From positions 1,739,534 through 1,803,533 of the forward strand of contig NZ_SOBT01000008.1 in NCBI RefSeq assembly GCF_004364935.1: a DNA stretch of 64,000 bases, in the 5' to 3' direction. Position numbers and translations under genes: made by a program. Each line of letters opens with the position of its first letter. The stretch's first letter is position 1. This document shows positions 4,089 through 45,821 of this stretch, in pieces. This DNA comes from Panacagrimonas perspica. GTDB taxonomy: Bacteria; Pseudomonadota; Gammaproteobacteria; Nevskiales; Nevskiaceae. The notes beneath the pieces were generated by a model, which saw nothing but the letters and a program-made list of their open reading frames with translations, did no database searches and was not told the origin of the DNA.

Positions 4089-5896
4089 GCGCCTCCATCA
4101 CCCGCCGTGCCTACGCCGAGATGTTCGGCCCCACCGTCGGCGACCGCGTGCGCCTCGCCGACACCGACCTGCTGATCGAAGTCGAGAAGGACTACACCTT
4201 GCTCGCCGGTTCCTACGGCGAGGAAGTGAAATTCGGCGGCGGCAAGGTCATCCGCGACGGCCAGGGCCAGTCGCAGCGTCCGGCGAAGGACTGCGCGGAC
4301 ACCGTCATCACCAACGCGCTGATCGTCGATCACTGGGGCATCGTCAAGGCCGACATCGGCATCAAGAACTCGCGCATCGCGGCGATCGGCAAGGCCGGCA
4401 ATCCGGACATCCAGCCCGGCGTGAACATCATCATCGGCGCCGGCACCGAGATCATCGCCGGCGAAGGCATGATCATCACCGCCGGCGGCATCGACAGCCA
4501 CATCCACTTCATCTGTCCGCAGCAGATCGAGGAGGCGCTGATGTCCGGCGTCACGACGATGATCGGTGGCGGCACCGGTCCGGCCACCGGCACGTTCGCG
4601 ACCACCTGCACACCCGGACCCTGGCATCTCGAACGCATGCTGCAGGCCGCGGACGCCTACCCGATGAACATCGGCTTCCTCGGCAAGGGCAACGCGAGCC
4701 AGGCCGCACCGCTGCTCGAACAGATCAAGGCCGGCGCGATCGGCCTGAAGCTGCACGAGGACTGGGGCACCACGCCGGCCTCGATCGACTGCTGCCTGTC
4801 CGTTGCGGAGGACACCGACACGCAGGTCGCGATCCACACCGACACGCTCAACGAGTCCGGCTTCGTCGAGGACTCCGTGAAGGCGTTCAAGGGCCGCACG
4901 ATCCACACGTATCACACCGAAGGCGCCGGTGGTGGCCACGCGCCGGACATCATCAAGGTCTGCGGCGAGAAGAACGTGCTGCCGTCGTCGACCAATCCGA
5001 CGCGGCCGTACACCGTCAACACGCTCGACGAGCATCTCGACATGCTGATGGTCTGCCATCACCTCGACGCCAGCATCGCCGAGGACGTGGCCTTCGCCGA
5101 GTCGCGCATCCGCAAGGAGACCATCGCCGCCGAGGACATCCTTCACGACATCGGCGCGTTCTCGATGATCTCGTCGGATTCACAGGCCATGGGCCGCGTC
5201 GGCGAAGTGATCATCCGCACGTGGCAGACCGCCCACAAGATGAAGACGCAGCGCGGATTCTTGCCCTCTCCCCCGGGGAGAGGGCCGCGCGCAGCGGCTG
5301 GGTCCCAGCGCGGGAGTGACTCAATGTCACTCCCGCGTAAACCCAACCTGGGTGAGGGACAGTCTCCCGCTCGACACGACAACTTCCGCGTGAAGCGCTA
5401 CATCTCCAAGTACACGATCAACCCCGCGATCGCCCACGGCATCGCGCACATCGTCGGCTCGGTCGAAGTCGGCAAGTGGGCCGACCTCGTCGTCTGGAGG
5501 CCCGCGTTCTTCGGCGTGAAGCCCTCGCTGATCCTCAAGGGCGGTTGCATCGCCGCCGCCGCGATGGGCGATCCGAACGCCTCGATCCCGACGCCGCAGC
5601 CCGTGCATTACCGGCCGATGTTCGCGGCCGCTGGCGGATCGCTCGCCCGCTGCTCGCTCAGCTTCGTGTCGCAGGCCGCCGTGAAGGCCAGGGTGCGCGA
5701 GCGCTACGGCCTGCAGAAGGACGTCGTCGCCGTCAAGAACTGCCGCAAGATCGGCAAGCGCGACATGGTCCACAACAACCTGATGCCCGACATCTCGGTG
5801 GATTCGGAGACCTACGAGGTCATCGCCGACGGCGAATCGCTGACCTGCGAACCGGCCAGCGTGTTGCCGATGGCGCAACGCTATTTCCTGTTCTGA
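4085..5896 (+). CDS. ureC: Urease subunit alpha with an in-frame repeat insertion
   Basis: Catalytic urease subunit. All active-site residues are present: H139 and H141 ([10 protein letters not shown]), carbamylated K222 (GLKLHEDWG), H251, H277 ([12 protein letters not shown]), flap C324-H325 (MVCHHL) and D365 ([12 protein letters not shown]). The protein has 603 residues against about 567-570 for the family. The excess lies between KMKTQRG (ends 391) and [17 protein letters not shown] (starts 432), where relatives have only a short PGD-type loop. This segment, about residues 392-430, is encoded by a family E palindromic repeat (5263-5357). It is in frame and all catalytic residues are unaffected, so activity is plausible but not certain. 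The gene overlaps ureB by 4 nt. Confidence 0.95.
5263..5357. repeat. Palindromic repeat, family E (copy 1), inside ureC
   Basis: Begins CCCTCTCCCCCGGGGAGAGGG and ends GGGTGAGGG. It contains a perfect nested hairpin, CGGGAGTGAC-TCAAT-GTCACTCCCG, at 5311-5335. The ends and the internal CGCGCGCAGCG match the copy at 37609-37649, showing that the extra ureC sequence is a dispersed element. Confidence 0.85.
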
Positions 5897-45205: not shown

Positions 45206-45237
45206 CGCGTGAATTTACCGCGAAGGCCGCGCCCACC

Positions 45238-45307
45238 CGTAGCCCGGACGAAGTCCGGGGCCCGTTCGATCTATTTACAGACGATCCCGGACTTCGTCCG
45301 GGCTACG
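45238..45307. repeat. Palindromic repeat, family A (copy 10)
   Basis: Both halves are of the CCCGGACGAAGTCCGGG subtype. It lies upstream of the leftward flavin monooxygenase gene and before the tRNA region. Confidence 0.95.
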
Positions 45308-45348
45308 GCGGCGCCATATTTTTCGGCGCGCCCGGGACCAGCCGCCCT

Positions 45349-45354: not shown

Positions 45355-45364
45355 GCCGCCCGAT

Positions 45365-45477
45365 GCGCCCTTAGCTCAGCTGGATAGAGCATTAGGCTTC
45401 GAACCTAAGGGTCGGGAGTTGCTCGCTACGCTCACGCCAACGCGCTTTCGCGCTTTTGGTCGAATCTCTCAGGGCGC
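45365..45477 (+). pseudogene. Disrupted tRNA-Arg(UCG) copy with 40-nt insertion in the T-loop
   Basis: Positions 45365-45420 are identical to the intact tRNA below, up to the TT of the T-loop. A 40-nt insertion (45421-45460) follows, and the sequence then resumes with CGAATCTCTCAGGGCGC. The terminal ACCA is replaced by TGGC. The insertion contains the stem CCAA-CGCG-CTTT-CGCG-CTT-TTGG. Because the T-loop is interrupted and CCA is missing, I call it a pseudogene. Confidence 0.85.
45421..45460 (+). repeat. Hairpin insertion, family F (copy 1)
   Basis: 40 nt containing GCTCGCTACGCTCACGCCAA and ending CTTTTGGT, inserted in a tRNA T-loop. It is closely similar to 45650-45692. Confidence 0.85.
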
Positions 45478-45528
45478 TGGCGAAGTGTTACGCATCGGTG
45501 AGACGGTCACCTTTACAATGCAGGTCAT

Positions 45529-45605
45529 GCGCCCTTAGCTCAGCTGGATAGAGCATTAGGCTTCGAACCTAAGGGTCGGGAGTTCGAATCTCTCAGGGCG
45601 CACCA
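45529..45605 (+). tRNA. tRNA-Arg (anticodon TCG)
   Basis: Complete 77-nt cloverleaf: acceptor GCGCCCT/AGGGCGC, D-stem GCTC/GAGC, anticodon stem TTAGG/CCTAA with loop CTTCGAA (anticodon TCG, decoding CGA), T-stem GGGAG/CTCTC with loop TTCGAAT, and an encoded CCA end. A TACAAT -10 box lies 9 nt upstream. It is the only intact tRNA in the window. Confidence 0.97.
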
Positions 45606-45641
45606 ATTTTTCCATGCCGTACGCCGGAGATTCTCACTCCC

Positions 45642-45713
45642 GGGGAGTTGTTCGCTTCGCTCACGCCAACGCGCGCGTTGCGCGCTTTTGGTCGAATCTC
45701 TCAGGGCGCACCA
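45642..45713 (+). pseudogene. tRNA-Arg 3' fragment with 43-nt insertion in the T-loop
   Basis: Begins in GGGGAGTT (5' T-stem strand), has a 43-nt insertion (45650-45692) at the same T-loop position as the first copy, and continues CGAATCTCTCAGGGCGCACCA, identical to the intact tRNA end. The 5' part of the tRNA is absent. Confidence 0.8.
45650..45692 (+). repeat. Hairpin insertion, family F (copy 2)
   Basis: Shares CGCTCACGCCAACGCGC and CGCGCTTTTGGT with copy 1. The apical part differs (GCGCGC-GTT-GCGCGC) but still pairs, so the hairpin is preserved. Confidence 0.8.
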
Positions 45714-45731
45714 CTTTTTTTGTAGTACATC

Positions 45732-45765
45732 AACGCGCTTGGGTCGAACCTCGCGGGGCTCACCA
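45732..45765 (+). other. Degenerate tRNA 3'-end-like fragment
   Basis: AACGCGCTTGGGTCGAACC followed by TCGCGGGGCTCACCA. It looks like a decayed copy of the insertion end plus a tRNA 3' end, just upstream of the VIT-family gene. Confidence 0.4.
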
Positions 45766-45821
45766 TCTTCAGGCCGGGCCGAACGGGGGATTCCCGCCCC
45801 TCGCCTATCAGGACCTTGCCC

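Follow-up and report, generated by a model that had tools for sequence, protein, structure and literature searches.

RtT-like tail repeats beside tRNA-Arg(UCG) of Panacagrimonas perspica and a probable dead copy of the tRNA split in the T-loop

The tRNA-Arg(UCG) locus of Panacagrimonas perspica (5.4 Mb in 16 contigs) is best read as an intact tRNA gene with RtT-like tail repeats and a second, full-length copy (copy 1), most likely a dead tRNA that arose through duplication and an exchange with the repeat. We give this reading a probability of roughly two in three. RtT is a poorly understood bacterial repeat, reportedly described in 1991 by Bosl and Kersten. Units with the same anatomy, with ends tailored to the host tRNA, and tRNAs split in a like manner were found in other genomes. 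The window, that is, the whole stretch of 64,000 nucleotides analysed, had been the subject of a preliminary description whose coordinates, sequences, 40-nt and 43-nt inserts at the same point of the T-loop, and decayed fragment are right to the base. It missed that the anatomy is that of a described repeat, the RtT of E. coli, and the arrangement is not unique to the window: related units occur at other tRNAs and in other genomes. The features of the locus are as follows.

45365-45420, + strand: copy 1, 5′ body of tRNA-Arg(UCG) through ..GGGAGTT (the 5′ strand of the T-arm and the opening bases of the T-loop), inside a direct repeat of 58 nt shared exactly with the intact gene.
45421-45460, + strand: T-loop insert of copy 1, 40 nt, a short core, apparently reversed; CGCTCACGCCAACGCGC is common to both inserts.
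45461-45477, + strand: copy 1, 3′ strand of the T-arm and acceptor strand (CGAATCTCTCAGGGCGC), CCA lost (sequence; Rfam tRNA match).
45529-45605, + strand: intact tRNA-Arg(UCG), anticodon tcg (ARAGORN; tRNA census).
45626-45633, + strand: anti-T3 (GGAGATTC), which can pair with GAATCTCTC at 45694 (minimum-energy and centroid folds).
45637-45649, + strand: anti-T5/T5 pair (CTCCC-GGGGAGTT), in which the string GGGAGTT of the tRNA occurs for the second time (direct repeat; the pair is in the centroid structure only).
45650-45692, + strand: insert of the downstream unit (3′ fragment), 43 nt, a short core, apparently reversed (sequence).
45693-45713, + strand: copy of the tRNA 3′ tail with CCA (CGAATCTCTCAGGGCGCACCA; exact 14-nt tail match).
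45732-45765, + strand: probable remnant of a further unit, core end and decayed tail CACCA (sequence, by eye).

Copy 1 and the intact gene region are identical over 58 of 58 nt (45363-45420 against 45527-45584). The intact gene, which starts 51 nt beyond copy 1, is the only UCG gene among the 44 tRNAs called in the genome. On its 3′ side the order is GGAGATTC-TCA-CTCCC-GGGGAGTT, the 43-nt insert, the full tail with CCA to 45713, and the decayed piece. The latter is probably a third unit because it retains AACGCGCTTGGGTCGAACC...CACCA, which resembles the end of a core. Among 132 Rfam tRNA matches in three congeneric genomes, copy 1 was the only one longer than 95 nt. The gene preceding copy 1 encodes a luciferase-like monooxygenase (Pfam), a relative of which also precedes the tRNA gene of the congener used for comparison, G001 (sequence likeness, by eye), and the string upstream of copy 1, TTACAATGCCG, is similar to that upstream of the congener's gene, TACAATGCCG. 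This shared neighbourhood suggests that the split copy sits at the original place, the intact gene being the second copy. Scanning around the tRNA copies of the window for promoters revealed no sigma-70-like one. Just 5′ of copy 1 lies a perfect inverted repeat, CCGTAGCCCGGACGAAGTCCGGG (45237-45308; arms of 23 bp, spacer of 26 nt), which looks like a separate palindromic repeat. Elsewhere in the window, an Rfam match to 5_ureB_sRNA (123 bits, 4249-4535, minus strand) possibly reflects merely conserved ureB coding sequence on the opposite strand.

The two inserts are closely related at their borders. On the left, the inserts with their GGGAGTT agree at 30 of 32 nt between copies 1 and 3, starting exactly at GGGAGTT, and on the right the inserts with the tail agree at 31 of 32 nt. 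The exact 17-nt core string occurs in the genome at this locus only, other matches there carrying two mismatches. Both inserts are predicted to form hairpins of similar shape, as the preliminary description had noted, but its conclusion of a conserved hairpin with unconserved sequence is drawn from two GC-rich sequences, since the folds are no more stable than those of dinucleotide shuffles (z of -0.29 for the 40-nt and -0.18 for the 43-nt insert; 74/200 and 82/200 shuffles folded as well). Stretches shifted by 2 and 1 bases gave a comparable result, and the fold of the whole window unit was no better than shuffles either (z -0.49). A terminator role for the insert hairpins was considered and rejected (one hairpin, with two overlapping sites, against 0.8 expected). 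The intact 58-nt body of copy 1 and its Rfam tRNA score, still 48.5 bits although the alignment passes over 45 nt in the T-loop, would suit a functional tRNA with a T-loop intron removed from the RNA. We regard this as extremely improbable: copy 1 has lost its discriminator together with CCA, its insert folds no better than shuffles, an intact gene follows at such a short distance, and bacterial splicing of that kind is not known.

The window unit shares the plan of RtT. It lies 3′ of a tRNA, includes a tail copy with CCA, and has anti-T3 and anti-T5 before the core, at 45626-45649, where they can pair with T3 and T5. Nonetheless, the Rfam covariance model RF00391 gave no match in the window or, under strict filters, in the genome of P. 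perspica, and a second model, R1, did not find the units of the window locus. R1 is a covariance model made from 25 units of relatives, with E. coli excluded. In the P. perspica genome it gave eight matches (E 0.008 to 7.3), none of them a unit; seven had no tRNA in the locus, and for the eighth a tRNA lay about 760 bp off on the other strand. Since both models fail while the anatomy is shared, the window units are an RtT-like shortened variant and were not filed as RtT members.

Among relatives such units are widespread. In 100 genomes, those of P. perspica and relatives, the Rfam RtT search matched 23, 12 of them above the cut-off and P. perspica not among them, and 27 of 30 loci fetched from Rfam RtT matches (two pairs overlap) held a copy of a called tRNA's tail. 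R1 recovered all four E. coli copies (E 8e-27 to 3e-22) and, at E up to 1e-4, matched 71 of 184 gammaproteobacterial genomes, at least six of which had supplied units to R1, and 68 of the 165 genera sampled. The RNAalifold structure of R1 has only 14 pairs and MAFFT misaligned hairpins 1 and 3; therefore, R1 served as a search profile, with no claim of covariation for all helices. It includes the tail, so that plain tRNA 3′ ends reach 18.6 bits; the matches used for the counts below score at least 22.4 bits.

The ends of the units were compared with the adjacent tRNAs. R1 was run on 94 chosen loci, mostly picked for RtT matches, and gave 154 matches, of which the best 150 were aligned; removal of within-genome repeats left 139 distinct units in 50 genomes. 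A same-strand tRNA lay upstream in the fetched piece for 114 of the 139 units, and none was called for the other 25. Over the 14 nt of the tail, mismatches to the upstream tRNA numbered 0 in 82 units, 1 in 9, 2 in 5 and 3 to 8 in 18 (n = 114). Thus, 96 of 114 tails were within two mismatches of the upstream tRNA and 18 were unlike the nearest one. The unit's own tRNA had strictly the closest tail in 95 of 114 cases, was tied in 6 and worse in 13, and, set against tRNAs elsewhere that serve the same amino acid, it was the closer in 99 of 113. Since the units behind R1 had themselves been selected by their tails, the count was repeated in the 31 genomes that had contributed none to R1, where 57 of 67 tails were within two mismatches.

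The inverted part of the unit follows the host as well. In 74 units, one per genome and tRNA, the anti-T3 of the own host preceded the core in 38 (not found in 36), against a mean fraction of 0.10 for other hosts, and the own-host anti-T5 in 53, against 0.31. The ends of the units are thus mostly the T-arm and tail of the neighbouring tRNA, across isotypes. In the reading we favour, a unit would consist of an inverted T-arm copy, then the 5′ strand of the T-arm, the hairpin core, and the T-arm 3′ strand with acceptor strand and CCA, and its ends would either be copies of the adjacent tRNA or be kept identical to it. By analogy with what was proposed for E. coli RtT, the units may be co-transcribed with the tRNA and processed. 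Inspection by eye showed tRNA and unit separated by a terminator-like hairpin with a T-run at three loci (L024, L038 and L154), at L038 in both repeats. The intervening hairpin disfavours routine co-transcription at these loci, and read-through may be required for RtT RNA.

Whole tRNAs split in the T-loop were found outside the window. When the core was left out, 3 of the 139 units became a tRNA (in genomes G076, G190 and G194), each 5′ of an intact gene with the same anticodon and each without its CCA end, as in copy 1 of the window. The split tRNA of G076 is a tRNA-Gln whose 5′ flank is repeated before the intact gene, that of G190 is a tRNA-Gln present three times in tandem at a spacing of 213 bp ahead of the intact gene, and that of G194 is a tRNA-Ser(CGA). 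The window is the fourth genome with such a tRNA. A same-strand scan of 200 loci with a tRNA found second tRNA bodies in eight cases including the window, all eight upstream of the intact gene; four of them were decayed or broken elsewhere (L078, L177, after the anticodon; L085, L115). The second bodies of L177 (oriented 815-965) and L078 (oriented 1121-1271), both tRNA-Ser(GCU), are broken by similar sequences (GGGGTGAGT..GACC..) in two genomes; perhaps this is another hairpin element with a different site. At L159/L084 (G062), which has two tRNA-Gln, a tRNA-Gln call of 90 nt that precedes the intact gene contains, in its variable-loop region, GCCGCAGGCGCGATAATCC, which is like the 3′ end of an RtT core.

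The site of the split is explained by the anatomy of the unit, because the T-arm 5′ strand lies just before the core and the 3′ strand just after it. A promoter-tRNA block would have been duplicated, one duplicate would have swapped its end with a unit inside the common string GGGAGTT, so that the core lands exactly in the T-loop, and selection would have retained one intact gene. The duplicated 5′ flank is directly visible in G076 and G190, and for the window locus we infer both the end exchange and a reversal of the core.

Related units also occur within the genus. ARAGORN calls in fetched pieces (44 tRNAs of P. perspica and 43 of G001) were scanned up to 450 bp behind each tRNA for its 14-nt tail with at most two mismatches. 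Tail copies were found behind Arg-UCG, Gly-CCC, Thr-GGU and Ser-UGA in P. perspica (4/44) and behind Arg-ACG and Ser-GGA in G001 (2/43); with the tails of other tRNAs as control, 53 of 7112 pairs matched, from which 0.65 would be expected for the 87 tRNAs against the six observed. The unit behind tRNA-Gly(CCC) of P. perspica (L118) is closely related to that with the 17-nt core of the window. It has GTTCGCTGCGCTCACGCC in common with the Arg-ACG unit of G001 (L047), and both have CGCTCACGCC in common with the window inserts. The minimum-energy fold of L047 lacks the anti-T3/T3 stem. A family-wide pattern search matched 2 of 58 genomes and was judged too strict because it missed the Gly unit of P. 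perspica itself. One pattern searched in genome contigs matched only in the congener's MAG, the exact pattern had no match in viral contigs, and in BLAST searches against plasmids and E. coli the matches listed covered tRNA bodies and not cores.

The window cores seem to run in the reverse orientation. The antisense score of the 43-nt insert against RtT cores was equalled in 15 of 1000 shuffles and in 8 of 1488 pieces of the window, and that of the 40-nt insert in 138 of 1000 and 83 of 1490. Of the reversed core, the window inserts hold GGCGTGAG-CGAAG-CGAA only. Since the direct antisense test on the inserts is weak, their reversal is argued through the genus. The antisense core scores of L047 and L118 were equalled in 1/300 and 0/300 shuffles. 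The Ser-GGA unit of G001 (L154) is a forward unit, its core scoring in sense above 294 of 300 shuffles, and it contains the exact reverse complement of TTCGCTGCGCTCACGCC. R1 aligned it end to end, yet at 17.6 bits, about the score of a plain tRNA end; weak single matches of this kind are therefore no proof alone. Two further loci, L032 and L034, of the same family match RtT cores in antisense with scores of 40.7 and 42.0 against about 20 and 22 (0/300 shuffles each), and R1 matched L034 on the opposite strand (E 1.3e-4).

Cores were also compared across tRNAs in 72 units, one per genome and tRNA. Mean identity was 0.737 for different tRNAs of the same genome (46 pairs), 0.696 for the same anticodon in other genomes (277 pairs) and 0.674 otherwise (2233 pairs). 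When genome labels were shuffled within anticodons the mean was 0.672 (sd 0.009), and 0 of 2000 trials reached the observed value. The Ser-GCU and Arg-CCG cores of G093 have an identity of 0.915, and their anti-arms and tails differ as their tRNAs do. The comparison suggests that cores move or are homogenised between the tRNAs of a genome.

These results bear on the suggestion in the preliminary description that a small palindromic element targets tRNA genes. In one form of this idea, the core would be mobile but non-autonomous and would enter tRNA T-loops in either orientation with a long one-sided target duplication, of promoter and tRNA body on the left or of tail and trailer on the right; one intact tRNA would therefore always remain. 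It accommodates split tRNAs on the upstream side as well as units on the downstream side, the position of the second tRNA bodies in all eight cases, cores that are alike within a genome while the ends stay host-specific, the antisense scores of L032 and L034, and the reversed TTCGCTGCGCTCACGCC that links L154 (Ser) to L047 (Arg) in the same genome and to L118 (Gly) in P. perspica. However, no transposase or integrase was linked to the units, gene conversion between loci would homogenise cores too, and the nearest core was in the same genome for 11 of the 39 units that had both choices (same anticodon elsewhere 11, neither 17). We consider such insertion somewhat unlikely. That RtT cores at large are mobile T-loop hairpins in both orientations, and RtT RNA the footprint of a tRNA-gene parasite found across the Gammaproteobacteria, is a tentative idea and on balance a doubtful one. 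What stands of the earlier suggestion is that related cores occupy the T-loop split of tRNA ends, at numerous tRNAs and across many genomes; the likeness of cores within a genome agrees with targeting, but local duplication plus gene conversion could produce a like result.

The other suggestion made there was of att-site remnants, left by integrases whose recombination in the T-loop restores the tRNA 3′ end, and it is very improbable. Direct repeats from the T-loop to the 3′ end are what tRNA integrases leave, and both these repeats and their spacing in the window suit such scars. The units differ from them in adding an inverted T-arm and a homologous hairpin core, at many tRNAs, and the whole tRNAs that are broken precede the intact one. 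Integration does not predict this. A look for linked integrase genes, also proposed in the preliminary description, found no integrase domain among 13 neighbouring ORFs or ORF parts (Pfam; 8 of the 13 had no Pfam match).

Under our favoured reading, of tail repeats with a duplicated and exchanged tRNA, annotators should treat tRNA genes with T-loop inserts beside such repeats as likely dead. The nature of RtT also becomes testable, be it a mobile element, a processed trailer or a recombination hot spot. The portions of the open-access literature consulted, including part of PMC5217627, contained no report of host-tailored ends, mobility of RtT, reversed cores or split whole tRNAs. Excerpts of earlier work describe RtT in Pasteurellaceae as seen on Northern blots and by RNA sequencing (PMC4986893), a 175-bp variable repeat in Salmonella rtT (PMC2658671), and a tandem GA motif in RtT (PMC7657543). 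The RtT-like units at two loci (L033 1321-1414 and L038 1330-1424, both minus strand) had sub-threshold Rfam matches to the Aggregatibacter sRNA AaHKsRNA22 (RF02902; 27.7 and 23.1 bits, gathering 39.8), which may be an RtT relative.

Compared with known systems, the window units are closest in plan to the RtT/RttR repeats of E. coli tyrTV (RF00391). Both lie 3′ of a tRNA, carry a tail copy with CCA, and have an anti-T-arm followed by a T-arm split by a hairpin core, in tandem copies; the tyrT-tyrV repeats of MG1655 read anti-T3, anti-T5/T5, hairpins, CGAATAATCC..CCACCA. The differences are that the window core has 40-43 nt instead of about 70, is seemingly reversed, and in sense lacks the CCCGAAGGG-YGAG-hairpin-CGA order of RtT, and that the window units follow a tRNA-Arg and have no Rfam match. 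The other gammaproteobacterial RtT units, mostly at Tyr, Gln, Ser and Arg with few at Thr and Pro, likewise have mostly host-tailored tails, whereas their cores are forward, longer and recognised by R1. BIME/REP elements are short palindromic repeats too, and an attenuator cluster with rtT-similar members was assigned to BIMEs, according to the part of PMC2965389 consulted. Units of the window type differ from them in lying behind tRNA genes and in mostly ending in the tails of these genes.
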